Shown in pieces: positions 18,476 through 54,107 of a stretch of 64,000 nt of DNA. The stretch's first letter is position 1. The number at the start of each line of letters is the position of its first letter. Location: contig NZ_CP063849.1 of the NCBI RefSeq assembly GCF_015277775.1, positions 682,001 through 746,000 on the forward strand, given 5' to 3'. The notes below the pieces were generated by a model. The model was not told the DNA's origin. It searched no databases and saw only the letters and a list, made by a program, of their open reading frames with translations. Origin of the DNA: Paludibaculum fermentans (GTDB taxonomy: Bacteria; Acidobacteriota; Terriglobia; Bryobacterales; Bryobacteraceae). A program made the position numbers and the translations under genes.

Positions 18476-19339
18476 ATGAAGTCCACAGTAAGAGTTGCCG
18501 CCGTCTCCGCTGAGAGCCACCCCGCCCGCACCGAAGCAAACCTGGATACCATCCGCCGTTGTGCCCGCAAAGCAGCGGAACAGGGGGCCGATCTGGTGCT
18601 CTTTCCCGAACTCAGCGTCACCGGCTTCGTTCCGAACCATCCCGTGGGCGATCACGCGCAGTGGCTGCGCGAGGTCCTGCAAGGCGCCTGGGCTATGGCG
18701 GAGCCGCTCAACGGTCCCGCTGTGCGCGAACTCGCCGCCATTTCCGCCGAAACCGGAGTCTTTCTGGCCGCGGGGCTCCTGGAGAATGCGGGCAACGTCC
18801 TCTTCAATACGCATGTGCTGGCCGGCGAAGGCCGCGTCTACGCTCACTGGCGGAAGATGCACATCCCGATGTTCGAAATGCAGGTCTACAACGGCGGCGG
18901 CGTTCCTGAGGTCGTCGACACACCCTTGGGCCGCATCGGCGCGAACATCTGCTTCGATACGCTCCTGCCCGAGTCCACCCGCCTGCTGGCCGTGCAGGGT
19001 TGCGAAATCGCGCTGTTTCCGTTCGCCGCCGATCCCGCCCCCGGCACCGCCGAAGCCTGGGCCGCCTGGGCCCGTCCCGTGCTCCAGGCGCGTTGTGCGG
19101 AAAACGGAATCTACGGAGCCGCCTGCAACTACCTCGGCAGCGTCTCCTTCGCGGGCGCCAGCCAGTCGTTCCCAGGCGGAGCCATGACGCTAGCCCCCGG
19201 AGGCCAGGTCCTGGCGGAAGGTGCAGCCGAGCTGCTGCTGACCGACTTCACCGCCCAGGGCCTGCTCGATGCGCGGGCGGCCTTCGAGTACACTTTCCGC
19301 TTCCGCCGGCCAGAGCTGTACGGTTCCCTCACTCGTTAG
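18476..19339 (+). CDS. Carbon-nitrogen hydrolase (nitrilase superfamily)
   Basis: 287 aa from ATG 18476; the frame is open further upstream but that part overlaps hyaD. The catalytic triad of the superfamily is visible: Glu in LFPELSVTG, Lys in WRKMHIP, and Cys in GANICFDTLLPE. No signal peptide is seen, so it should be cytoplasmic. It hydrolyses a non-peptide C-N bond (amide or nitrile), but the substrate cannot be read. It lies 11 bp after hyaD, so co-transcription with the hydrogenase is likely. A role connected with hydrogenase maturation or nitrogen scavenging is speculation. Confidence 0.87.
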   Translation: MKSTVRVAAVSAESHPARTEANLDTIRRCARKAAEQGADLVLFPELSVTGFVPNHPVGDHAQWLREVLQGAWAMAEPLNGPAVRELAAISAETGVFLAAGLLENAGNVLFNTHVLAGEGRVYAHWRKMHIPMFEMQVYNGGGVPEVVDTPLGRIGANICFDTLLPESTRLLAVQGCEIALFPFAADPAPGTAEAWAAWARPVLQARCAENGIYGAACNYLGSVSFAGASQSFPGGAMTLAPGGQVLAEGAAELLLTDFTAQGLLDARAAFEYTFRFRRPELYGSLTR

Positions 19340-19381
19340 CGGTGCAGTCCGTCGGAACGTACACCGGGTTCTCCGGCGAAT

Positions 19382-19387
19382 TACACT
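19382..19387 (+). promoter_or_regulatory. -10-like TACACT 6 nt before the radical-SAM ATG
   Basis: TACACT is followed by exactly 6 nt and then ATG 19394. If used, transcription would start at the A of the start codon, giving a leaderless mRNA. No Shine-Dalgarno sequence is visible in the 54-bp gap after the nitrilase gene. Confidence 0.35.
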
Positions 19388-19393
19388 GGATTT

Positions 19394-20578
19394 ATGAGCC
19401 GATTCCGCGAATTGACTCTCCTCTCTTCCGCGGACGGCGCACGGATGGCCCTTGGTTTCCCCCTGGCCGCGCTTCACCTGTTGCGCGATGGAGCCGTTAC
19501 CCAGGGCGCCACGCCCTTTCCCCGGAGGCTCGGACTCTTCCTCACGAATCGCTGCAATTTCGCCTGCCCGATGTGCGCCGTGCAGGATGCCCGCGACGAA
19601 GGGCTCGCCCACGGCGGCGACATGCCCTTCCAAATCCTCGACACAGTTTTGGCCGAATGTTCGCCCCATCAGCCGGTGGTCGATCTCATTGGCGGCGAAC
19701 CGCTGCTCTACCCGCGCATCGGCGAAGCCGTGCAACTGGCCTCGCGCCGCCGCGTTCTCGCGGTCCTGACGACCAACGGTCTCAAGTTGGAGCAGCAGGC
19801 CGAAGCCCTGGTGAAAGCCCGTCTACCCATGCTCCAGATCTCAATCGATGGCTGGGACGAGCCCTCGCAAGCCGCGCGCGGCGGAGTGAGAGACTCGCTG
19901 AGCCGGATCCGTGCCGGCATTCGAGCCGTGCAGCAGGCCCGCGGACGCCGGTCATTTCCTGCGATCCGCGTCCTCACCGCCATCACTCGGGTCAACCATG
20001 CTCACCTCGATCGCATCCAGCAACTTGTCGCGGAACTGGGTGTCCGTTCCTGGGGCCTCTCCAACTACTTCTACGTCAACCGCAATGCCCACGCCCGGCA
20101 CCAGGAGTTTGCCCTGTTGCACGGCCTCACCGGAGCCGTCGTCGCCCATTCGATCCCTGGAGATGTCTATCTGGATTCGGTCCAGGTGGCTGGCCTCAAG
20201 GCTTCTCTCCTGCGCGTAAAAGCCGCAAACCGAACGCTCCGGCTGAAGATCGCCTACGCCTGGGACATCGACCTGGACAGCTACTACTCGACCCGCGAGG
20301 CCGCCCGTGGCCTGCTCTGCGAACTACCCTGCCGGCGTCTCGACATCCAGACCGACGGCCGGATGGCGGTCTGTGTCAGCGGCAAACAACTGGGCCAGGT
20401 AGGCCGCGACAGCATCACGCAGGTGCGGCAAGGTGCGGCCATGGCCGGCTACCGCCGCCTTTACGAGCAAACCCGCCCCATGCCCATGTGCTTCCGTTGC
20501 TGCGGCTTGTCGCAGTCGATCCGGTTTGACGCCGTGGCTGTGCCCCATCGCGAGCCGGCAGCAACTGCGCGCCAGTGA
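19394..20578 (+). CDS. Radical SAM protein with SPASM-like C-terminus
   Basis: 394 aa. The radical-SAM cluster motif CNFACPMC is near residue 56, followed by 'DLIGGEPLLYP' (glycine-rich SAM contact) and 'LTTNGLKLE'. The C-terminal region carries cysteines in 'CELPCRRLDIQTDGRMAVC' and 'MCFRCCG', resembling SPASM or twitch auxiliary-cluster domains. Such enzymes modify peptides or cofactors; the substrate is not evident and no precursor peptide was found nearby. It lies 54 bp after the nitrilase on the same strand. It is the last gene of the hydrogenase neighbourhood; the next gene is convergent. Confidence 0.85.
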   Translation: MSRFRELTLLSSADGARMALGFPLAALHLLRDGAVTQGATPFPRRLGLFLTNRCNFACPMCAVQDARDEGLAHGGDMPFQILDTVLAECSPHQPVVDLIGGEPLLYPRIGEAVQLASRRRVLAVLTTNGLKLEQQAEALVKARLPMLQISIDGWDEPSQAARGGVRDSLSRIRAGIRAVQQARGRRSFPAIRVLTAITRVNHAHLDRIQQLVAELGVRSWGLSNYFYVNRNAHARHQEFALLHGLTGAVVAHSIPGDVYLDSVQVAGLKASLLRVKAANRTLRLKIAYAWDIDLDSYYSTREAARGLLCELPCRRLDIQTDGRMAVCVSGKQLGQVGRDSITQVRQGAAMAGYRRLYEQTRPMPMCFRCCGLSQSIRFDAVAVPHREPAATARQ

Positions 20579-20736
20579 CCGCGGAGCGCGGCCGAGAGCC
20601 ACCAGCGACGGAAGTGCTCACGTTTCTATGACACCCAGAAGAGGAACGCGAAGTTTCGATAGGAAGGCTGTGAACTTCAGAGAGAAATGGCGGGCCTTCT
20701 TCGGTGCTTCGGGGCGTTCACCCACACGGCCGGCGC

Positions 20737-22260
20737 TCAAGCGGTCCCTTTCGTAGCCTTACAGCGCAATTCAACCTTTTCCACCCAACGGCGAAAGCGC
20801 GGCTGAAGGTGTTCAGCGTGATGATTCACTGCTTCGCGAGCCGCTTTCAGGTGCTCCGCACGAGCCTCCGGTGATTGTCCGGAGAGCGCGAATTGCAATA
20901 TGGCCCTGAACACTGATCGATAGGATCCGTGGCCTCGCATAGTCGGATAACGCACAAGGATCTGCCACTCAGGCTGCTCAAGAAGCCGACTGAGTGTCTC
21001 TACGCTCCGGCAAAGCGAGAACCATCGTTCAGCGTCCTCACGCAGCGCCCTCAGCGCTAGTTCGGCGGAGTCGAAGCAGGTCGGACCTGCAACTGCGGCG
21101 CGCATTGCAGGCATCAACCACATCTGAAGTTGGCACTCACCGTACTTCGGTCGAAACTCACCGTGACGGTTTCTTCTGACGCCATCGTGTTCAGCCAGTT
21201 CCGGCCAGAATACCCCTAGTCCCAGACGAAACAGACCGGAGGGGTATTCGTTTGCTCGCTTCTCAAATGGGTCCATGGGGATAAATGAGACGACCTCAAT
21301 GGAGTTTCCGGTGGGACGGTGGGCGAGCCGATCACTGAATTCGACAAAGCCATTCGCGCGCAATTGCGGCCATAAGCATTCTCGAGCCGAGAGAACCACA
21401 TGCCCTGCCCCCTCAATCTGAATAGAGGGGCGTGTGATTGGGCCCGTGGACCAATTCGCCCCGAAAAGCTGACACTCCGGCGGGTGGATAGCAAACTCAT
21501 CCTGCGGTAGTGAGATCGAACCCAATACCCCCGTGAGGAGGTCCCTGAGGCGATACGACTCCAGCTCAACTTCGATTGGTCTTGTGAACCCAGGTGAGTA
21601 TATGTCTAGCTTCGCTTCAGCTGAGGCATTGATGGCAGCAAGGCATGCACTCGCAGACATGGAATCCGGTGATTGGGTATGTAGTTCTACCTTTAGGCTG
21701 GCCAAGAGATCACAAGCGGAGAAAGAGCCCGGGGCACCTGAAGTACCGAGACCGAGCGTCTCCGTCCCCCTAAGCGGCGCTGCGTTCTCAGACATTGCGA
21801 GAACAACACTGCCGAGGTCTTCGAACGCTGTGAACCATGGAGGGGCCTGTTCTTCCAGCAGGCAGATAACTTCATTGAGCACCGCGGCCATCGTGCTACC
21901 GTCCGGGGCGACATAGAAGATGTCGGCCCTCTCGAAGCCGTCGACCGTAGTTCTCTTCTTCAGGTGCACCCGGAATGAGCATGCGGGCTCCTGTGGGCGT
22001 GCAAGGCCGATCGAGTCCCTCTTCACCCACCTGTCAAAGGTACTTCCCCTAAGCAAGACTCCTAGGTTCAGAGCGAACGAAAACGTTGTGCAGCCGAGCC
22101 CATCCGCCAGGTGAGAATTGAACGACTGGAAGTTGACCACATCAATCAGTGGTCCCCGATATCGCCATGCATTGCGGCCATCAAACTTGGAGAAACCCTG
22201 ACGCCGAAGAACCGGCCACACTTCTGATCGTAGGAGCTTGCTAACAACTTTGCTATCCAT
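20737..22260 (-). CDS. Hypothetical protein with two DUF4304-like repeats
   Basis: 507 aa, no signal or membrane helix. Residues ~1-110 ('LLRSEVWPVLRRQGFSKFDGRNAWRY', then 'IDVVNFQSF') and ~285-380 ('RECLWPQLRANGFVEFSD', then 'IEVVSFIPM') look like two copies of one domain. The pattern is a helix ending in a ..W..L...GF.. motif, then strands with 'I(D/E)VV.F'. This resembles DUF4304, of unknown function. The surrounding DNA is less GC-rich than the hydrogenase operon and is followed by transposase relics, so it may be acquired. The function is not known. Confidence 0.6.
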   Translation of the reverse strand: MDSKVVSKLLRSEVWPVLRRQGFSKFDGRNAWRYRGPLIDVVNFQSFNSHLADGLGCTTFSFALNLGVLLRGSTFDRWVKRDSIGLARPQEPACSFRVHLKKRTTVDGFERADIFYVAPDGSTMAAVLNEVICLLEEQAPPWFTAFEDLGSVVLAMSENAAPLRGTETLGLGTSGAPGSFSACDLLASLKVELHTQSPDSMSASACLAAINASAEAKLDIYSPGFTRPIEVELESYRLRDLLTGVLGSISLPQDEFAIHPPECQLFGANWSTGPITRPSIQIEGAGHVVLSARECLWPQLRANGFVEFSDRLAHRPTGNSIEVVSFIPMDPFEKRANEYPSGLFRLGLGVFWPELAEHDGVRRNRHGEFRPKYGECQLQMWLMPAMRAAVAGPTCFDSAELALRALREDAERWFSLCRSVETLSRLLEQPEWQILVRYPTMRGHGSYRSVFRAILQFALSGQSPEARAEHLKAAREAVNHHAEHLQPRFRRWVEKVELRCKATKGTA

Positions 22261-22311
22261 CTCAGCAAGCGTTCCTATCCGTCGGCTCCGAAATCACTTT
22301 ATAGGCTTCGA

Positions 22312-22458
22312 TCATTTCGTCCTCTTCTGCGACAGGGTCCGCCACAACGTATGGCGACTGACATCAAGTTCATCGGCAACCTGCACTTTGCTGTACTCCC
22401 CGGACAACAGGAGCGTCCTCGCCTTCTTCAAGTCGGCCGCATCGAGCGCCTTGCAAAG
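22312..22458 (-). pseudogene. Serine recombinase/resolvase remnant (C-terminal helix-turn-helix only)
   Basis: The minus strand encodes, up to TGA 22312-22314, 'ALDAADLKKARTLLLSG', then 'VQVADELDVSRHTLWRTL'. This is the helix-turn-helix tail of Pin/Tn3-type resolvases. The frame is closed upstream by TAG 22489-22491 and no catalytic domain (the Ser nucleophile region) is present. It is therefore only the last ~48 residues, left by deletion. It directly follows the transposase relic in the same frame, indicating a decayed mobile segment. Confidence 0.72.
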
Positions 22459-22488
22459 GGAGACGTTCAGTGGCCTGTCACTGTCGTT

Positions 22489-22956
22489 CTATCCGCATAT
22501 TCTGCCAGGCAAAAACCTCCAGTATCCTACTCTAAACGACCACTTCCGATCACACCGGATCCGCCTCATTCCCGATCTGGCTCTCATTACCCCAACTTCC
22601 TTCGCTGGCGTCTGCTCCCCCGCCACCTTCGCCCAAAGCCCAGCCCGTTGCGCGTGCATTTCCTCCGTAAAGGCCTTGTCTCCAAACGGCTGGCCAGAGT
22701 GCGTCGCGCGGCGCAGCCTTCTTAGCGCGATCTCCACCTCCGGTTCATTCAACAGGCGCACCCAGGCTGGATCGGCGCCCTCCGTTCGGCAAAAGGACAG
22801 GTCCGCGATCCGCGCCGGCTCTTCCCCTGACAGATGAGCCTCCGCGCTCGATCATCCATATCTCCGCGGATCGGTCACCAGCCCGGGCGGCCCGAACACG
22901 GCAGGATGATTCAGTCTCATCCAAATACGGGGGTGCCATACCACGACGTCCACCTT
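22489..22956 (-). pseudogene. RAYT/IS200-like transposase remnant with in-frame stop
   Basis: The C-terminal part reads 'EIALRRLRRATHSGQPFGD', a signature of REP-associated (Y1-type) transposases that end with ...RR.T.TGRP.G. Upstream in the same frame the text is 'GLVTDPRRYG', a TGA at 22852-22854, then 'SSAEAHLSG'. In intact relatives this spot reads ..PWSSY.AHL, so the TGA probably replaces the conserved Trp codon TGG. A further stop lies at 22957-22959 and no catalytic HUH/Tyr domain remains. This is a truncated, dead gene. The identity of the segment upstream of the TGA is less certain. Confidence 0.62.
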
Positions 22957-22961
22957 TCACA

Positions 22962-24299
22962 TCACGCGATCAACCGCGCAACGTCCCCCCCATCGCCGAT
23001 CAATGCGTTCTCTTTGGAAGGCAAGGTTCGGACGATCAGCAAGGCCGTCAGCGGGACGGCGATCGCGTAGACATACTGTGTCCGCGACACGCCGATGCCG
23101 AACGGAAACCAGATGCCCGGCACGCCGATCGGATCGAGCAGTTCGGCGCCGAACAATGCGGCCATCGTCGAGGCCAAGGTGCCGAGCGCCAGGAGCCGCC
23201 TTGGTCCTGTGCGGGCAATGCGCGCGCCGATCACGATAAACAACGCGATCGACCCCAGCCGGCTGCCGCTTGTGACATTCGCCGCACGCATCACGGCGCC
23301 GATGGCCCCCGCGACCGACAGCAGTGCAGCCAACACATCGAGGCTGCGCCACGGACGCTCGCACCAACGGTTCCAGGCCAACGTCCAGACCGCCACCATC
23401 GGCACCCACATCACCGACGCCTGCCACGCATAGGTGTCCAGATCGATCAGATCGGTCCATGCGACGATCGCGTTGCTGAGTCTCCTCGCTGCCATCAGCG
23501 CCAGCGCCATGCTGGCCAGCATCAGGAAACTCCTGCGGCTGCTGCGATACCGGTACCCCAGCGCCAGGCCGATGACCGCGAACATGGCGGCCGGTTCGAT
23601 CACTTCGACAATGTAACCGGCGATGGTTCGTCCCCATTGCACACGGTGCAGCGCTTCGCTAACCGGCCGCTGAGCGAGTATGGGCGCGCTGTGCATGCCG
23701 CCGCCGTCCGCGCTGCCGCCGGAGCCGGGCCGCATGTATGCGCGGACAGCGATCACGCCACGGGTGCCCGCCGCATCGCTGGGAAGCGCGAACCGAAGTG
23801 GCCGCGTACCAACGACGCGAGGCGCCGGGCCGAGCTCGCCCGACCCGCCCAGTAACCGGCCGTTCCAATATAGTTCGTAGCCGTCCTCGACGAGGGTCGG
23901 CCCCAGGATCTCCCACGATGCGCGTCCGGCCGGCACCGCCACCGCGCGCCGGTACCACGCGTAGCCGTGATAGCCGGGATGACCGTGCGCCATCCACCCG
24001 CCTACGTAGTCCGGCAGGCCCACGTCGCCGTCGTGGCTGCCAGGCAAGGCCGTCATATCGACCGTCTCCCAACCGCTATCGTCCGCATTGCCGTCTGCCC
24101 AGTGTGGGTCATCGCCGGTCCGGAATCGCCAGGAGCCATCGAGCAGCGTAGCTGCGGCCCGCAGCGCCGGCGGATCGGGGCGACCGCCGCTTGCCAGGTC
24201 GGCGGTCACGATGGCCACCGCCAGCAGCGTCGCCATCACGATGCCGGCGATCAGTTTTAGTTGTGTTGCATCGCTTGGACTCATTGGCGTTCTAACCAT
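22962..24299 (-). CDS. Membrane protein: beta-sandwich (galactose-binding-like) domain plus seven helices
   Basis: 445 aa (ATG 24299, or ATG 24284 five codons later). One N-terminal helix is followed by an extracytoplasmic domain (~35-200) with 'LLDGSWRFRTGDDPHW' and 'YAWYRRAVAVPAG', like sugar-binding jelly-roll domains of glycosidases and 7TM-DISM sensors. About seven hydrophobic helices then run to the end. No kinase, cyclase or other output domain follows, so signalling would need a partner. It is divergent from a CGNR regulator, and a 28-bp palindrome lies in the 50-bp gap, so it is the likely regulated target. Codon usage looks different from its neighbours (many ATCG/GATC combinations), suggesting possible transfer. 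Confidence 0.65.
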   Translation of the reverse strand: MVRTPMSPSDATQLKLIAGIVMATLLAVAIVTADLASGGRPDPPALRAAATLLDGSWRFRTGDDPHWADGNADDSGWETVDMTALPGSHDGDVGLPDYVGGWMAHGHPGYHGYAWYRRAVAVPAGRASWEILGPTLVEDGYELYWNGRLLGGSGELGPAPRVVGTRPLRFALPSDAAGTRGVIAVRAYMRPGSGGSADGGGMHSAPILAQRPVSEALHRVQWGRTIAGYIVEVIEPAAMFAVIGLALGYRYRSSRRSFLMLASMALALMAARRLSNAIVAWTDLIDLDTYAWQASVMWVPMVAVWTLAWNRWCERPWRSLDVLAALLSVAGAIGAVMRAANVTSGSRLGSIALFIVIGARIARTGPRRLLALGTLASTMAALFGAELLDPIGVPGIWFPFGIGVSRTQYVYAIAVPLTALLIVRTLPSKENALIGDGGDVARLIA

Positions 24300-24311
24300 A
24301 TACAGGGTCGA

Positions 24312-24339
24312 TATACGGTTAGGCTAGCATAACCGTATA
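24312..24339. promoter_or_regulatory. 28-bp palindromic operator between divergent genes
   Basis: TATACGGTTA (24312-24321) and TAACCGTATA (24330-24339) are perfect inverted copies. The centre contains GCTAGC (24323-24328), itself a palindrome, so 13 of 14 base pairs match. A third half-site with one difference, TAACCATATA (24293-24302), overlaps the start codon of the membrane-protein gene. The right arm runs into the -10-like box of the CGNR gene. This is the pattern expected for an autoregulating repressor that controls both directions. Confidence 0.75.
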
Positions 24340-24343
24340 AAAT
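24338..24343 (+). promoter_or_regulatory. -10-like TAAAAT 6 nt before the CGNR start
   Basis: TAAAAT (within TATAAAAT, 24336-24343) is followed by GAGATC and then ATG 24350, so a transcript would be leaderless. It overlaps the last bases of the palindrome, so binding there would block the promoter. Confidence 0.4.
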
Positions 24344-24349
24344 GAGATC

Positions 24350-24973
24350 ATGTGGTTAGATTCGATGGCCGCCATGGACAGCGGAAATTACAGATATCAG
24401 TTTGTCGCCGGAAACCTCGCGCTCGATTTCGTCAACACCGTCGCATTTCGAGCGGATCCCGGGAAGAGGAAGGACCATCTGCAATGTGCCGCGGATGTGC
24501 GCCTGTGGGCTGGCCAGGCTCAGTTGCCGGATCGGGCTGCAATCCTTTCCGAGCCCCTTCTGGGAACCCCGGCGCTGCGGCGCATCCGCGCAATCCGCGA
24601 ACAACTGTTTGCGGTTTTCCATGCAATCGCAAGCGATGACCCGGTCCCGGCGGACACACTGGCCCAGATTGGCAATGCTTTGCACGATTGTTGCGCCAGG
24701 AGATGTTTGTCCCTTCAGGGAACTGATGTTCGCTGGACTTGGCGGCCTGGAGCGCGGTGTACGGACTATCTCCTCTATCCCGTCCTCATGGCAGCAACCG
24801 ATCTTCTCACCTCTGTTGCCCGCGGTTCGGTCCGTCAATGCGAAGACGCAGGCTGCGGCTGGCTGTTCCTGGACCGATCCAATGCCCGCAAGCGACGTTG
24901 GTGCAGCATGGCTGACTGCGGCAACCGCAACAAGGCCCGCAAGTTCTACCAGCGCGAGGCCGGTCTGATCTAG
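24350..24973 (+). CDS. CGNR zinc-finger transcriptional regulator (ABATE + CGNR)
   Basis: 207 aa. The N-terminal 'FVAGNLALDFVNTV' is the ABATE domain signature. The C-terminal zinc finger uses C164 and C169 (CEDAGC), then C185 and C190 (CSMADCGNR), which includes the name-giving CGNR, followed by a basic tail (KARKFYQR) for DNA contact. The family is a known class of stress-related bacterial regulators. It is transcribed divergently from the membrane-protein gene with the palindromic operator between. The start may be ATG 24350 (fits the leaderless promoter) or the ATGs a few codons later. Confidence 0.9.
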   Translation: MWLDSMAAMDSGNYRYQFVAGNLALDFVNTVAFRADPGKRKDHLQCAADVRLWAGQAQLPDRAAILSEPLLGTPALRRIRAIREQLFAVFHAIASDDPVPADTLAQIGNALHDCCARRCLSLQGTDVRWTWRPGARCTDYLLYPVLMAATDLLTSVARGSVRQCEDAGCGWLFLDRSNARKRRWCSMADCGNRNKARKFYQREAGLI

Positions 24974-25226
24974 AAAGTCGTCAGAAAGGCCACGGCCACA
25001 GGGCTCGCCGAGCACCGCCTTGCGAAGGCCAACCCTGAAGTGCCCGGGGAAGCCTGCCCCGCAAATGCCTCCGATCCGGCTCCACTTCTTCCCGAATTCC
25101 GGCATTAAACCGTATTCATTGCCCGCCGCTCAGGATTTATCTTCTCTTTCCATCCAATCGCTTACAGCCGTACCCTCCTGAGTTGCTCGTCCCCATGGTG
25201 TACAACCTCGACCAAGGAGCAACCAC

Positions 25227-25700
25227 ATGGAAATCTTCAAGCCGGCGATGGACGGGTTCATCCCCTCGCGCCACTTTCTGCAAACCACCGGTGCCGAGAA
25301 CGACCTCCTCCTCGGAGACGACTCGGCCAGCGTCATCACGTGCATCGAGGACCAGGGCCTCTTCAGGGCCCTCCGCGACGACGTCCACCAGCACGTCGCC
25401 CCCACGACCCGCCTCGAGCAGCACATGGCCGATTCCATTGCCGAGGAACTTTGGCGCAACTCCCGGTACTCGCTCGTCGAAACCACCGCCCTCTGCGTGG
25501 CCATCGAGCGCGATTGGGAATCGGTGACGAAGGAGTGCCCCAACGCCGATCCCGCTTACCGCACCTACGTCGCCATTCGAGACCGGAGCGCCCGCGACAC
25601 TTCCTGCATCCGCAGTAGCCAGGACTTCGAAGCCCGCTCCTGGCGCCGCAGCCGCGCCGACCTCGCCACCCTCCGCACCTACCGGACGAAGCCCCGCTAA
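25227..25700 (+). CDS. Hypothetical protein, relative of the 26.5-kb gene product
   Basis: 157 aa; AAGGAG at 25214-25219 supports ATG 25227. The segment 'TRLEQHMADSIAEELWRNSR' aligns in pattern with 'NCLEEEIFHRILTHTWNLRR' of the protein encoded at 26483: ..LE....I....W..R, then an E-rich helix. The two appear to be paralogues, this one lacking the basic N-terminal 'STGP...GKARSSQNARRHG' block. It starts a three-gene same-strand cassette that ends in the hairpin-repeat array. From memory this type is lineage-specific in Acidobacteriota and of unknown function. The preceding 253-bp gap (24974-25226) shows nothing recognisable. Confidence 0.65.
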   Translation: MEIFKPAMDGFIPSRHFLQTTGAENDLLLGDDSASVITCIEDQGLFRALRDDVHQHVAPTTRLEQHMADSIAEELWRNSRYSLVETTALCVAIERDWESVTKECPNADPAYRTYVAIRDRSARDTSCIRSSQDFEARSWRRSRADLATLRTYRTKPR

Positions 25701-25724
25701 CGTCCGAAACCGGAATCCAACACC

Positions 25725-26765
25725 ATGACGAAACGAACCCGATCCCACCGCCGCGCCGCACGCCCAGCCCGCCGGCCCAGCCTCCACGACAGCCTTTACC
25801 GCTTGCCTGCCGGCATCGAAGCCAGCCTCTACGAACAGTCGTTGGAGCAGACGGAGGACATCGCCGACCCGCGCTTCCGCACCCTGTTCGTCCAACGCCT
25901 CCTTCTCCGAGGCCATGAGCGCCGCCTCTTCCAAATCGAAGCCAAACTCTGGGCCGAAGCCCTTCGTGTCAACCACGGAGCCCGCCGCCAGGCCGTGCTC
26001 TGGATTCACCAGAACCACGCCGAGGTCCTCCAAATCCTGGGCCGCTACCACGCCTGGATCTGTGCCCGAATCACCGCCGTCCAGAAGGCCCTCCGCCCCT
26101 TCCACGCCCAGGAGCGCGCCCGCCAGGCGGCCAGCGTTCCGGCTGTCTTCGCCGCGGCGGCCGGCTCCAGCCGCCCCATTCTCGTGGGCGTCCCAAGCGA
26201 AGCCAACGGCCGCCTTTCAGCTCGTGACACAAGCCCACAAAACGCGGAGTCGGTCGCACCCCTGCAGTCCCTCAGGCAGCCGTCCGGCACCTCCAAGCCA
26301 ACGCACTTGTCCCCCAATTCCGGTATTGAGCGATTGGCCGTCACCGCATCCGAAACTCTTTATTTCGTTTCTTTTCAACAAAAGCTTCCAGAAATGGGCC
26401 AATTTCCCTTGACACTCCCAGTTACCCTGGAATCGCGCCGGCCCCTACGCCGGCCATTTTCATTTACAAGGAGTTTGACATCATGGCTACCGCCGCTCAG
26501 ATCACCGCCAATCAGGCCAACGCAAAACAGTCCACCGGACCCGTCTCCATCCAAGGCAAGGCCCGCTCATCCCAGAACGCCCGTCGCCACGGCTTCACCG
26601 CCCAGCACCTCAGCATCACGCCCGAAGACCGCGCCTCGTTCACCGCCCTCGAAGCGTCCCTGCGCCTCGATACCCGGCCCGCGAACTGCCTCGAGGAGGA
26701 GATCTTCCACCGCATCCTCACTCACACCTGGAACCTCCGCCGCATCGAATCCTTCGAATGCTTGA
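25725..26765 (+). CDS. Hypothetical basic protein; 3' end doubtful
   Basis: The ORF is 346 codons. Only residues ~1-200 look like protein: Arg-rich start, then a helical region 'ADPRFRTLFVQRLLLRGHERRL' and 'HQNHAEVLQILGRYHAW'. Beyond ~residue 230 the composition turns into Pro/Ser/Arg low-complexity typical of a non-coding frame. The last 283 bp overlap the well-supported gene at 26483 in a different frame and include its Shine-Dalgarno sequence. The true gene has probably lost its stop by a frameshift or extends without function. It sits 24 bp after the 25227 gene. Family unknown. Confidence 0.5.
   Translation: MTKRTRSHRRAARPARRPSLHDSLYRLPAGIEASLYEQSLEQTEDIADPRFRTLFVQRLLLRGHERRLFQIEAKLWAEALRVNHGARRQAVLWIHQNHAEVLQILGRYHAWICARITAVQKALRPFHAQERARQAASVPAVFAAAAGSSRPILVGVPSEANGRLSARDTSPQNAESVAPLQSLRQPSGTSKPTHLSPNSGIERLAVTASETLYFVSFQQKLPEMGQFPLTLPVTLESRRPLRRPFSFTRSLTSWLPPLRSPPIRPTQNSPPDPSPSKARPAHPRTPVATASPPSTSASRPKTAPRSPPSKRPCASIPGPRTASRRRSSTASSLTPGTSAASNPSNA
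26437..26454 (+). terminator. Small GC hairpin with T-rich tail upstream of the 26483 gene
   Basis: GCCGGC (26437-26442), CCCTAC loop, GCCGGC (26449-26454), then CATTTTCATTT. It resembles an intrinsic terminator for the 25725 gene, but because that ORF runs through it, it also marks where the ORF stops being believable. Confidence 0.4.
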
Positions 26766-27190
26766 TCCTCGCCGAAACGGACCCATTGGCCGAAACCGAC
26801 CCGCACGGCGCCCAACTCGACCGCTATGCCCGCTACCGCCGCGATCTGGAACGCGGCCTCTACCGCGCCATCAAGGAACTCAGCAAACTCCAAGCAGAGC
26901 GCGCGGCCCTAGCCCAGCAACACCCCGATGTCGTCAAAGGTGTCCGCGAAAACGTCCCCCTGGCTGAAGTCACCCGCCTGACGAGCAACACCGACGAACT
27001 CTTCTTCTACGAAGGCTTTGGCCGCCCGCGCCGCGCCCTCCAACACCTCACCACCGGCATCGACACCAACCACCCCGACAACCAGGACCCGCTCGCAGAC
27101 CTCCAACCGATCCGCATTCCACGAAACGAAGCCAACCCCGCCGCCGCAGACGGACTGCCTGACAACTTCTACAACGTTTCCAAGCGCTGA
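26483..27190 (+). CDS. Lineage-specific protein of the 'STGP..GKARSSQNARRHG' family
   Basis: 235 aa with AAGGAG 9 nt before the ATG. The N-terminus 'QITANQANAKQSTGPVSIQG' followed by 'KARSSQNARRHGFTA' is a basic block recalled from multicopy proteins of Acidobacteriota and other soil bacteria, of unknown function; nucleic-acid contact is plausible from its charge. A helical middle ('IFHRILTHTWNLRRIE', 'LDRYARYRRDLERGLYRAI') and a variable tail with 'RNEANPAAAD' follow. The DNA for this tail contains the first exact copy (27121-27133) of the 13-mer that recurs in the repeat array just downstream. Confidence 0.72.
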   Translation: MATAAQITANQANAKQSTGPVSIQGKARSSQNARRHGFTAQHLSITPEDRASFTALEASLRLDTRPANCLEEEIFHRILTHTWNLRRIESFECLILAETDPLAETDPHGAQLDRYARYRRDLERGLYRAIKELSKLQAERAALAQQHPDVVKGVRENVPLAEVTRLTSNTDELFFYEGFGRPRRALQHLTTGIDTNHPDNQDPLADLQPIRIPRNEANPAAADGLPDNFYNVSKR

Positions 27191-28324
27191 AGACCACCCC
27201 AGCGCCAGTTCGCGCGGTGTTGACGAAACGAAGTCGCCGAGCATCAACGAAACGAAGCCGTCATCCGACTCATCTGCGGGTCGCATCACCAACCGGAGTC
27301 CATCTGGCCCTGCTCTTTGACAACCTCACCTGTAAATCCCCTCCGGGGAGCCACAGCCAGCAACCGCCGAGCCCTCCGTGTGCGCGTCCCCCGAGCCCAC
27401 CCCGTCGGGACGGCGCCCTCGTCGGCAGCCGGTCCCCTGACCGGCCCTCTTCTCTCTGCGGAACGGAAAGGAGGCCGCCGCCTTAACTAAGCGAGCCCGT
27501 CAACGAAACGAAGCCACCAGCCCCCTCGAACCGCCGAGCCCCCTCCGTCGGGACGGCGGACGCCCTCGTCCGCAGCCGGTCCCCTGACCGGCCCTCTTCT
27601 CCCTTCCAAGCGCCAAGGTTGCCGCCAACCCAACGAAACGAGCCCGTCAACGAAACGAAGCCACCAGCCCACCCGAACCGCCGAGCCCCCCCGCCAGGAG
27701 GGCGGACGCCCTCGTCCGCAGCCGGTCCCCTGACCGGCTCTCTTCTCTCTTCGGAATGGAAAGGAGGCCGCTGCCTCAACTAGCGAGCCCGTCAACGAAC
27801 GAAGCCACCAGCCCCGAACCATCGAGCCACCCCAGGAGGGCGGACGCCCTCGTCCGCAGCCGGTCCCCTGACCGGCTCTCTTCTCTCTTCGGAATGGAAA
27901 GGAGGCCGCTGCCTCAACTAGCGAGCCCGTCAACGAAACGAAGCCACCAGCCCCCGAACCATCGAGCCACCCCGTCGGGAGGGCGGACGCCCTCGTCCGC
28001 AGCCGGTCCCCTGACCGGCTCTTTTCTCTCTGCGGAACGGAAAGGCCGCCGCCGCCTCAACTAAGCGAGCCCGTCAACGAAACGAAGCCACCAGCCCACC
28101 CGCCCCGTCGAGCCCACCCCGTCAGGACGGCGGACGCCCTCGTCGGCAGCCGGTCCCCTGACCGGCCCACTTCTCATCCAGACGAAGGACCGATACCCCA
28201 AGCCGGTCCCCACCAGTCGTCCGATCCGGCAGCCCGGCCCCAATCCGTCTCGCCCAGTCCCGGCAGCGCCGGGCCACCCAGCCCCCAGCAACCAACAGCT
28301 TCCGGAACTCCACGAAACGAAGCC
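27121..28324 (+). repeat. Dispersed 13-mer ACGAAACGAAGCC, seven exact copies
   Basis: Exact copies start at 27121 (inside the 26483 gene, reading R-N-E-A), 27247, 27503, 27650, 27933, 28077 and 28312. Near copies are at about 27223, 27633, 27795 and 28459. From 27503 onward they form part of the tandem unit. The first ones precede the array, as if a coding motif was copied outward or the array grew from the gene tail. Confidence 0.7.
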
Positions 28325-28470
28325 ACCGGCCACACCCGCCGCCACCAGCCCACCCGAACCGTCGACGCCCCCGCACGGAGGGCGGACGCCCTCGTCCGCA
28401 GCCGGTCCCCTGACCGGCCCTCTCCTCCTTTCAACCTCCAAGCGTTACCGCAACCCAACAAAACGAAGCC
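27384..28470. repeat. Tandem array of ~143-bp units with paired hairpins (7 copies)
   Basis: Each unit carries hairpin 1, GCGGACGCCCTCGTCCGC (6-bp stem), one A, then hairpin 2, GCCGGTCCCCTGACCGGC (7-bp stem, CCCT loop). Hairpin-2 starts are 27428, 27575, 27721, 27859, 28002, 28149 and 28401. Spacings are 147, 146, 138, 143, 147 and 252. Hairpin 1 is intact at 27556, 27702, 27840, 27983 and 28382, has one stem mismatch at 28130, and is degraded in the first copy. Between hairpins there is a CTCTTCTC tract, a variable part, then the ACGAAACGAAGCC 13-mer. The 27191-28555 interval has no supported gene; the long ORFs on either strand are repeat translations. The look is REP/BIME-like, and a RAYT relic lies about 4.5 kb upstream. 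Confidence 0.85.
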
Positions 28471-28543
28471 ACACGCCCACCCTCCGGCAGCACCAACCCT
28501 CTCCTCCGACAACCAAGGAGAACCCCGTCCCCCGCCAGTGGTC

Positions 28544-28549
28544 TATCGT
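28544..28549 (+). promoter_or_regulatory. -10-like TATCGT 6 nt before the isomerase ATG
   Basis: TATCGT then GGGAGC then ATG 28556. This is the same hexamer and distance as at the BlaI gene (63537-63542). It supports ATG 28556 over the in-frame GTG at 28538, which would lie upstream of the box. Confidence 0.4.
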
Positions 28550-28555
28550 GGGAGC

Positions 28556-29464
28556 ATGCGTAGCCTGCTCTCCGCGATCCTCACCCTCAGCCTCCTCTCC
28601 TGGGGCGCCGCACCCGCCTCAATGCAGGCCGGGCATGTCGGCATCTTTCTCCGCTGCACCGGCAAGACCGAACCCCGCGAGGCACTGCAGGCCGTGCGCT
28701 CCCTCGGCCTGCACATGGTTCAGATCAGCAAGCTGCCCGACCGCTTCTACTCCCCCGAAGGCGCCAAGGAATTCGCGGCCCTGCTGAAGGAATCCGGAGT
28801 CCAGGCTAGCGCCGTCGTGGCCGTCTACGACGGTGAGAACTACAAGGACATCCCCACCATTCGCGCCACCGTCGGGTTCATGCCCGCCGCCTTCATGGAC
28901 CAACGCGTCGCCTACACGAAGAAGTGCGTCGACTTCGCGGCCGCCCTCAAAGTGAAGATCGTCACCTTTCACGTCGGCTTCCTGCCCGCCCAGCCCACCG
29001 ATCCCGACTATCAGCGGCTGGTCCACGCCGTCAGGGACGTGGCACAGTACGCCGCGAAACACCGCGTCACCATCTCGCTGGAGACCGGCCAGGAAAGCGC
29101 CGACGAGTTGCTGCAGTTCCTCGGCCAGGTGGCCCGCCGCAACGTCGGCGTCAACTTCGACATGGCCAATCTGGTGCTCTACGGCAAGGATGATGCTCCG
29201 GCAGCGCTCAGGAAACTACTGCCCAAGGTCACTTCGGTTCACGTCAAAGACGGACTCCAGCCCGGAGACCCAGCCCGCCTGGGCGCTGAGACCCGGCTCG
29301 GAGAAGGGAAGGCCGGCGTGAAGGAATGCCTCCAGATCCTGAAGGCCGCGCACTTCGCCGGACCCGTGGTGATCGAGAACTACGTCTTTCGCGGTCGCAA
29401 GTCGGAACCGATGGACGAGCTCGCCTTGGCCAAGGCCTACGTCGATCAGATCCTGGCCCAATAA
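28556..29464 (+). CDS. Secreted sugar phosphate isomerase/epimerase-like TIM barrel
   Basis: 302 aa from ATG 28556. The signal peptide is residues ~1-22 (LLSAILTLSLLSWGAAPAS). It belongs to the xylose-isomerase-like AP endonuclease-2 fold: 'VKIVTFHVGF', 'ISLETGQES', 'VGVNFDMANLVLYG', 'VTSVHVKDG', and 'GPVVIENYVF' provide the Glu, Asp and His metal-site residues expected in that family. Export is unusual for a sugar epimerase but frequent in Bryobacterales-type genomes. It stands alone downstream of the repeat array. The substrate is unknown. Confidence 0.82.
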   Translation: MRSLLSAILTLSLLSWGAAPASMQAGHVGIFLRCTGKTEPREALQAVRSLGLHMVQISKLPDRFYSPEGAKEFAALLKESGVQASAVVAVYDGENYKDIPTIRATVGFMPAAFMDQRVAYTKKCVDFAAALKVKIVTFHVGFLPAQPTDPDYQRLVHAVRDVAQYAAKHRVTISLETGQESADELLQFLGQVARRNVGVNFDMANLVLYGKDDAPAALRKLLPKVTSVHVKDGLQPGDPARLGAETRLGEGKAGVKECLQILKAAHFAGPVVIENYVFRGRKSEPMDELALAKAYVDQILAQ

Positions 29465-29568: not shown

Positions 29569-31023
29569 ATGAGATGCGTAAAGCTGCTGTTTCTGTGTGC
29601 GACGCTCGCGGCGGCCGCCGACAATGATGCGCCGCGGCGCCTGGCCGCCCGCGCCCTGGGCGAAACGCCCCTCTGGACGGATCTGCGGGCCCTCTGCGAC
29701 GGCATCGGCGGCAGGCCCACTGGCTCGCCCGCCGCTCAACGTTCCGTGGAATGGGCGGTGAAGACCTTCCGCGCAGCCGGCCTGACCTCCGTCACAGTCG
29801 AGCCGTTCAAGATCCCCCAGCTCTGGTTGCCCGGCACCGCCGAAGCCTCCGCTCTGTCGCCCGTACAATTCCCCATCCGGCTGGCGGCGGCGCCCTTCAC
29901 GGCGTCCACCCACGGCGCACTGGAAGCGAACCTTGTCGATGTCGGCGAAGGCTCCGAACAGGACTTCGCCCGCGCGGGCGCTCGGGCCAGGGGCGCCATC
30001 GTACTGGTCCGCAGCAAGGAGATGAAGTCCTTCGACGACCTCTTCGCCGAGTACCTCCGGAACGATGCGCTGATCTCCTCCGCCAGGAAGGCCGGCGCCG
30101 CCGCGCTGCTGCTCCAGTCCACCCGCCCGCGCGGCCTGCTCTACCGCCATCCCATGGGCCTCGACGGCGCCCTCGTCCCGCTGCCGGCGGCGGTGGTCAG
30201 CCGCGAGCATGCCGAGCGCCTGTCCCGCCTGGCCGAAGCCGGCGACGTCCGCCTTCGCCTCAATCTGCAGAACCAGACCGGCGGCGAGTACGAATCGCAA
30301 AACGTCGTGGCCGAGATTCGTGGCCGCGAGAAGCCCGAGGAGATCGTCCTCATCGGAGCCCACCTCGACTCCTGGGATCTCGGCACCGGCGCCGAGGACA
30401 ACGGCGTCAACGTCGCCATGATCCTCGACGTGGCCCGCGGCTTCCAGGAACTCGGCATTGTGCCCCGCCGCACCATCCGCTTTGCGCTGTTTACCGGCGA
30501 GGAGCAAGGCATGTGGGGTTCGCGCCGCTACGTCGAACGCCATCGCGCGGAGCTCGACAACTTCGTCGCGACCGTCACCTTCGATACCGGCTCCGGCCGG
30601 CTCAGCGGCTTCTATCTGAATGGCCGCGAGGACCTGCGCGCGCCCGTCAACGCCGCTCTCGCGCCCCTCAGCGGCTTCACCGCCTCAGACCACCTGATCG
30701 ACGCACTCGACGGCACCGACAACTTCGACTTCCTGCTCTCCGGCGTACCCAACCTCGTCGGGGTGCAGGATCCCATCCCCTACCTGCCTGACTACCACGC
30801 CGAGTCCGACACCTTCGATCGCGTGAACCAGCGCGAGCAGAAGATCACCACGGCCATCGCCTCCGCCCTGGTGTGGTCGCTGGCCGAAAGCCCCCAGCGC
30901 CTGCGGCGCCAGTCCCGCCAGGAGGTCGAGAAACTCCTGATCGACACCAAGCTCGACCAGCAGATGAAGGCCTTTGGCCAGTGGAGCGACTTCACCGCCG
31001 GCCAGCGCGGTCTCTTCCAATAG
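29569..31023 (+). CDS. Secreted M28-family zinc aminopeptidase with PA domain
   Basis: 484 aa with a short signal peptide (KLLFLCATLAAAA). A PA-like insert (~110-225) precedes the M28 catalytic domain. Zinc-ligand motifs are in order: GAHLDSWD (His), GAEDNGVN (Asp), FTGEEQG (catalytic Glu then Glu), TFDTGSG (Asp) and DYHAESDTFD (His). It cleaves N-terminal residues from peptides outside the cytoplasm. TATACT at 29522-29527 is a possible -10. The stop is only 9 bp from the convergent gene at 31033. Confidence 0.9.
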   Translation: MRCVKLLFLCATLAAAADNDAPRRLAARALGETPLWTDLRALCDGIGGRPTGSPAAQRSVEWAVKTFRAAGLTSVTVEPFKIPQLWLPGTAEASALSPVQFPIRLAAAPFTASTHGALEANLVDVGEGSEQDFARAGARARGAIVLVRSKEMKSFDDLFAEYLRNDALISSARKAGAAALLLQSTRPRGLLYRHPMGLDGALVPLPAAVVSREHAERLSRLAEAGDVRLRLNLQNQTGGEYESQNVVAEIRGREKPEEIVLIGAHLDSWDLGTGAEDNGVNVAMILDVARGFQELGIVPRRTIRFALFTGEEQGMWGSRRYVERHRAELDNFVATVTFDTGSGRLSGFYLNGREDLRAPVNAALAPLSGFTASDHLIDALDGTDNFDFLLSGVPNLVGVQDPIPYLPDYHAESDTFDRVNQREQKITTAIASALVWSLAESPQRLRRQSRQEVEKLLIDTKLDQQMKAFGQWSDFTAGQRGLFQ

Positions 31024-54030: not shown

Positions 54031-54107
54031 TGGTGGGCGCGGCAGGACTCGAACCTGCGACCTCCTGCGTGTGAAGCAGGCGCTCTAACCAACTGAGCTA
54101 CGCGCCC
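54031..54107 (-). tRNA. tRNA-Val (anticodon CAC)
   Basis: Read on the minus strand: 7-bp acceptor stem GGGCGCG/CGCGCCC, D-arm GCTC..GAGC, anticodon stem CCTGC/GCAGG with loop TTCACAC (anticodon CAC, valine codon GUG), short variable loop, T-arm GCAGG-TTCGAGT-CCTGC, and an encoded CCA end at 54031-54033. 77 nt in total, all stems paired. Confidence 0.96.

Follow-up and report, generated by a model that had tools for sequence, protein, structure and literature searches.

The stretch of Paludibaculum fermentans DNA analysed here (the window, 64,000 nucleotides, C1:682001-746000 of a 9.53-Mb genome) contains a head-to-tail series of paired hairpins, which raises the questions of what kind of element the hairpin pair is, what keeps its stems paired and how it came to be repeated at this place. 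We propose that an acidobacterial two-hairpin REP, in which a 4-base foot precedes two 7-bp hairpins set one base apart, has been expanded locally and head-to-tail to give the array, and we put the probability of this reading at about 80%. It draws on copies scattered between genes, on stems that co-vary and on inverted copies that flank RAYT genes in this genome and in relatives.

Architecture of the array

Model R1, applied to the whole window at E ≤ 0.1, places seven + strand REP copies of 51-55 bases between 27403 and 28426 with scores of 55.0-84.6 bits, and the seven-unit array of paired hairpins described in the original prediction is therefore real. Six of these copies sat in the R1 seed alignment, from which copy 1 (27403) was excluded, so that their high scores arise by construction. 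An eighth row, at 29692-29736, scores 14.2 bits and is at chance level. The copies and the array are as follows.

27403..27453, + strand: REP copy 1, with a 4-base deletion and a damaged hairpin 1 (R1 55.0 bits; RNA fold z -0.35)
27546..27600, + strand: REP copy 2, foot GGAC (R1 81.3 bits)
27692..27746, + strand: REP copy 3, foot GGAG (R1 84.6 bits; RNA fold z -2.87)
27830..27884, + strand: REP copy 4, foot GGAG (R1 82.3 bits; RNA fold z -3.07)
27973..28027, + strand: REP copy 5, foot GGAG (R1 83.1 bits; RNA fold z -2.39)
28120..28174, + strand: REP copy 6, foot GGAC, with one mismatch in hairpin 1 (R1 77.9 bits)
28372..28426, + strand: REP copy 7, foot GGAG, following a longer unit of 252 bases (R1 79.5 bits; RNA fold z -3.01)
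27403..28480, + strand: the whole head-to-tail array with its spacers, most of which contain the motif CGAAACGAAGCC

Each element runs from the foot (GGAG or GGAC) through hairpin 1, a single A and hairpin 2. Both hairpins have a 7-bp stem and a CCCT loop, hairpin 1 reading GCGGACG-CCCT-CGTCCGC and hairpin 2 GCCGGTC-CCCT-GACCGGC; the single A between the stems had been recognised correctly, and hairpin 1 is one pair longer than first stated. Comparison of the units agrees with the earlier description of an unchanged hairpin 2 and a mostly preserved hairpin 1: hairpin 2 is without any difference in all seven units, and hairpin 1 is undamaged in five, being altered in units 1 and 6. RNA folding covered five of the seven units (1, 3, 4, 5 and 7), with z between -2.39 and -3.07 in four of them and -0.35 in unit 1, and folding unit 3 as DNA gave z of -5.11 and -3.48 for the two strands.

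Unit lengths are 143, 146, 138, 143, 147 and 252 bases, followed by a partial last unit, and Tandem Repeats Finder reports 27391-28175 with a period of 147 and 5.5 copies. The predicted period of ~143 bp accordingly describes five of the seven units and fails for the 252-base unit and the partial last one. Between units the hairpin parts are 86-98% identical and the spacers 55-100%; a CRISPR array was considered and rejected, the spacers being homologous to this degree and the unit length variable. For the long stop-free ORFs across the array, the earlier suggestion that they are by-products would fit.

Two smaller observations concern the window itself. Seven occurrences of the motif CGAAACGAAGCC lie in it, at 27122-28313, all on the + strand and none on the - strand, and each falls in the end of a 235-aa gene, in that gene's tail or in the array spacers. 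Searching the whole window against Rfam at gathering scores returned tRNA only, the sole match being a tRNA gene at 54034-54107 on the - strand.

A dispersed family with co-varying stems

The array DNA gives 53 BLAST matches in the genome, and a covariance model built from 38 distinct copies finds 89 genome copies at E ≤ 0.001, a number that may be a lower bound because 150 of ~17,000 candidates were scored. The seed alignment of this model, A1, holds 38 of 39 distinct rows, identical copies and the damaged window unit 1 having been removed. The 89 copies group into 57 clusters, of which 39 are single and 18 contain two to seven copies. All but one of the clusters (56/57) lie outside crudely predicted genes. 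Simple recent duplication, which the original prediction had itself set against its reading, is contradicted by the copies found elsewhere in the genome and by the compensatory variation in relatives described below.

Multi-copy clusters are arranged head-to-tail without exception, in the window genome (18/18) and in two relatives, G006 (5/5) and G002 (3/3). Since neighbouring copies never alternate in orientation, the array is not BIME-like; of the REP/BIME-type label originally given to it, the REP part is upheld by the genome-wide intergenic copies and the inverted RAYT flanks, and the BIME part is given up because all 18 clusters point one way. REPINs are two inverted REPs paired. The clustering of REPs between genes is a feature shared with BIMEs and REPINs, but BIMEs, in the portions of the sources available to us (PMC2817692, PMC3116915), alternate in orientation, unlike the one-directional clusters of the window genome.

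The two-hairpin REP type occurs in Acidobacteriota, chiefly in records titled Bryobacterales or Bryobacteraceae. In a set of 21 genomes made up of the window genome and 20 relatives, six have copies, eight have a RAYT homologue (E ≤ 1e-10) and five have both; G006 has 77 copies, and the G006 counts given here use those in 20 fetched regions. Conservation between genera extends to the sequence of the hairpin element, besides its shape.

Pairing is kept in 97.7% of stem cells across the 38 distinct copies, and both sides change at seven of the 14 pairs, which none of 500 shuffles matches. Three further alignments were fitted to the model, and are so biased towards it, in which both sides change at 8/14 pairs among 84 distinct copies (a number that 3/500 shuffles also get, the covariation score being attained by 0/500), at 10/14 pairs among 58 distinct copies from relatives (65 rows, four being repeat reads of the same places) and at 11/14 pairs among 39 copies within ~2 kb of RAYT genes. 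Compensatory changes are thus present in all four alignments, in line with the prediction of a maintained paired structure; judged by these substitutions, the pairing of both stems is selected or otherwise maintained. Hairpin 2 and the last pair of hairpin 1 account for most of the variation. Of the seven pairs of hairpin 1, four are invariant in the 38-copy alignment, and a G.G mismatch occupies the third pair of hairpin 1 in 22 of the 84 distinct copies. G-T wobbles outnumber A-C mismatches 25 to 12 over three alignments, a weak sign of RNA-level selection.

A base-by-base comparison with G002 covered three sites, from a sample of 12% of the orthologous REP sites. At the first (L173/L212) the G002 copy differs in hairpin 2 by a compensated change, at the second (L174) the REP is conserved but degenerate, and at the third (L176) it is present in the window genome and missing in G002, a difference that is no more than compatible with mobilisation by a RAYT.

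Two additional structural features were examined and rejected as general. Single folds showed a three-way junction closed by an outer helix between the foot and a CT-rich tail, in which 79.5% of cells pair and one of five pairs changes on both sides. A 'double foot', with CYAC no more than 2 bases after hairpin 2, is found in 8/90 copies.

RAYT genes, the foot and the active site

Nine Y1_Tnp matches are present in the window genome, one of which has REP flanks. This RAYT, at C1:4458645-4459205, has REP_Tyr_transpos as its best NCBIfam match (E 8.9e-20, 71.1 bits against a curated cut-off of 80), with one REP copy upstream on the + strand and two downstream on the - strand. The RAYT homologues of G006 and G009 are flanked in the same inverted layout, their REPs having GTAG and GTGG as feet. 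The window genome has another RAYT, 53% identical, that keeps NHVH and is without such REP flanks.

We surveyed acidobacterial RAYT loci from genome contigs, taking the best 80 of at least 473 relatives, and scored a close inverted pair where the upstream side had a + copy and the downstream end a - copy, within ~120 bases (E ≤ 0.01). Twelve of these best 80 loci have such a pair, among them 10 of the first 14 (L275-L288).

Loci with a close inverted pair: L275, L276, L277, L280, L281, L282, L283, L284, L286, L288, L315, L349

One of the two flanking copies is a weak match at L283, L288 and L349, and a 13th locus, L294, has inverted copies that lie farther off. As for the remaining early loci, L278 has REP copies on a single strand only, the record of L279 starts 19 bases ahead of the RAYT gene, and no REP copies were found at E ≤ 0.01 at L285 and L287. 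With L282 taken to be the G009 locus, inverted flanks are found at 14 loci in total, namely the window genome's own, that of G006 and the 12. Against the link to RAYT stands the absence of a close inverted pair from 68 of the best 80 of at least 473 loci.

The draft genome of G002 (99% complete) has 89 REP copies, sampled here in L195 and L197-L254, and zero RAYT homologues at E ≤ 1e-10. The counterpart of the RAYT locus in this genome holds ~7.2 kb of other DNA instead. G002 is thus an instance of REPs without a visible RAYT partner.

The feet of the window genome (n=90) are GGAG in 47 copies, or 48 in an alternative tally that differs by one inserted base, and GGAC in 39; none is GTRG. Those of G002 resemble them in 12/18 cases, and G006 (n=38) has GTAG in 16, GGAG in 13, GTAC in seven and GTAA in two. 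Copies of relatives that lie near RAYT genes have the foot GTRG in 29 or 30 of 39 cases. As GTRG feet are lacking in the window genome, we class its repeat as a variant among RAYT-associated REPs, and not as a plain member; homologous copies in relatives do have GTRG feet.

The REP-flanked RAYT of the window genome is altered as well. It reads NDVH, with Asp replacing the first His of HUH, and retains the catalytic Tyr and the W motif. HUH is intact in 80/80 of the other RAYT loci (the best 80 of at least 473), with the proviso that, of the two patterns searched, one accepted only H or D at the first HUH position, so that other residues are under-sampled. This replacement suggests that the cognate transposase may be impaired. 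For one published RAYT, the available part of the report describes an altered foot that moved the cleavage site while cleavage persisted (PMC8266576).

A comparison with known systems places the family close to the GTAG-tagged REPs with RAYT/TnpA_REP. According to the portions of PMC3733652, PMC6006769 and PMC8266576 compared, those elements are likewise intergenic, lie behind genes and near RAYT genes, begin with a 5' tetranucleotide foot and have stems that mostly measure 6-9 bp and include complementary variants. Peculiar to the present family, relative to these accounts, are two hairpins per foot, the GGAG/GGAC foot and a RAYT whose first HUH His is replaced. The class 3 TnpA_Y1 structures of Solibacter usitatus, for which the consulted part of PMC6006769 gives about 600 copies and a CnGA foot, are likewise secondary structures of an acidobacterium, present in high copy number and close to a Y1 protein. 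They differ in combining that foot with a Y----Q motif, in contrast to the GTRG/GGAS foot and YIxxNP found here; membership of class 3 was rejected because neither CnGA nor Y----Q is present. REPs predicted by RepRanger in three Acidobacteriota genomes are intergenic palindromes of the same phylum, but they come from other genera, and the available text gives per-genome counts with neither a two-hairpin family nor a RAYT link (PMC12306157). The sections of the REP papers compared name no double-hairpin type, and among the open-licence papers listed no title or abstract describes the window repeat. Many short repeats are mentioned for Ellin6076 in the accessible part of PMC3174227. The family adds a double-hairpin type to the REPs, unusual also in its altered foot and its fixed direction behind genes.

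As to how the copies spread, the element, folded as a single strand, would once have been a substrate that a RAYT copied or moved. In the lineage of the window these REPs may have ceased to behave as ordinary mobile ones, as suggested by the change of foot from GTRG to GGAG/GGAC and of the RAYT His to Asp.

Direction behind genes and origin of the array

By our own crude, codon-based gene calls, in which coding bases make up 60% of the samples of the window genome and G006 and 83% of that of G002, REP clusters of the window genome lie between divergent genes in 3 of 41 cases with both neighbours called. They share the direction of the gene just upstream in 25/26 cases within 150 bp and 42/49 within 1500 bp, and in 22/23 within 150 bp when the RAYT locus and those of the 235-aa gene family described below are removed; the gene downstream shows no direction bias (13/23 within 150 bp). 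In G006 the direction agrees with the upstream gene in 13/14 cases within 150 bp and 15/20 within 1500 bp. The corresponding figures for G002 are 5/5, alone not significant, and 7/10, the downstream gene there being opposite in 7/8, and in both relatives the bias weakens with distance. REPs are reported mainly behind genes in the available part of PMC3733652, in which we found no strict direction relative to the upstream gene. Two readings of the co-orientation remain, a role in RNA and insertion into the exposed non-template strand.

Co-oriented copies at the 3' ends of genes are also what duplicated intrinsic terminators, or terminator-like ends with no tie to transposition, would look like. 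A loose terminator scan of window 26200-28700 gave 16 sites against a shuffle mean of 3.6, and four terminator-like sites are hairpin 2 of window copies (four of the seven) with a CT-rich tail. However, at least five T in the 8 bases after hairpin 2 are found in 11 of the 23 copies at loci of the gene family and in only one of the 67 elsewhere. Inverted copies on either side of RAYT genes at 14 loci would be unexpected of terminators, as would the conservation of sequence, beyond shape, between genera, and we regard this explanation as improbable.

If the hairpins are REPs, as we prefer, their location at transcript 3' ends may now be what maintains the pairing, and double hairpins running in the direction of the transcript could serve as a mark on the RNA end or as its protection. 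A more far-reaching version, in which a mobile REP system turned into a host RNA element as its RAYT lost the catalytic His, the foot drifted, one-directional 3'-end marks were selected and tandem amplification followed where it was useful, is one that we advance tentatively and with more doubt than conviction. REPs are widespread, and a long-standing question is whether they are selfish or useful. With a changed foot and a changed RAYT active site, hairpins that continue to co-vary and an orientation that nearly always follows transcription, the present family is a natural test case that could show whether transposition or host function maintains such elements.

Copy spacing is constant or nearly so within most loci of at least three copies, yet it differs from locus to locus, being 97 at 4247k, 87 at 4632k, 81 at 8660k and 143 at 8640k; REP pairs lie 78 (4459k), 84, 108 and up to 316 bp apart. 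The large, regular period once taken as a trait of the element is thus not one, and the ~143 bp of the window would reflect duplication of a REP together with its flank, a process by which spacing comes to vary by locus. The available part of PMC3733652 describes large clusters in which a REP recurs along with flanking DNA. Tandem arrays would arise from single copies when REP and local flank are duplicated, perhaps by replication slippage or unequal crossing over at the hairpins. A spacing of 143-147 recurs at four places: the sibling arrays at 4056k and 4060k, the array behind a third gene copy (8640k) and the unrelated-looking 4185k.

The arrays at 4056k, 4060k and 8640k all stand behind copies of one gene, which also precedes the window array. 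In the window, it and the duplicated DNA ahead of it are as follows.

26483..27190, + strand: 235-aa gene just upstream of the array, one of 25 genome copies (E ≤ 1e-60)
25082..26303, + strand: upstream half of a duplicated 'long form' common to five loci, with ORFs at 25227-25700 and from 25725 onward

The 25 copies of this gene family (L021-L045) were taken from 49 matches; one carries an in-frame stop and 17 others are 80-97% identical. REP copies lie downstream of eight of the 25. The arrays at 4056k (four copies) and 4060k (three) are 97% and 87% identical to the window array over stretches, and the genes ahead of them encode proteins 96% and 93% identical to that of the window. Judging by these identities, the window array was copied together with its upstream gene.

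It could be asked whether the gene and its REP tail form the mobile unit, the gene product and not a RAYT spreading the hairpins. The REPs at those eight of 25 gene copies share the strand of the gene and are no more than 2 kb downstream of it, with none upstream; our own arithmetic expects ~0.15 such loci. Loci of the family hold 23 of the 89 REP copies, and the long-form units at five loci are 88-90% identical over 2.3-2.8 kb. We nevertheless think this very unlikely: REPs are absent from 17 of the 25 gene copies, 66 of the 89 lie elsewhere, and one of the 26 gene-family loci examined in relatives carries a REP copy. One locus (L024) matches the gene unit of the window up to the array and then continues without it. 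The 235-aa product itself has a helical predicted structure of medium confidence (mean pLDDT 68.7), and the family has nothing convincing in Pfam (best E 0.019) or PHROGs (best E 0.022) and zero NCBIfam matches.

Expansion of a REP thus remains our preferred account of the hairpins; the gene with its leader, for its part, looks like a dispersing unit. No clean empty or insertion site was seen for the array. At the syntenic place in G002 (L195), window 19326-28538 (9.2 kb) is unmatched, and its sides lie ~100 bases apart. A conserved CCACTTCTCCCCCAATTCC-like leader is found ~180 bases upstream of many copies of the 235-aa gene, and the long form (window 25082-27190) has another leader-like stretch, at 25082, as well as two additional ORFs.
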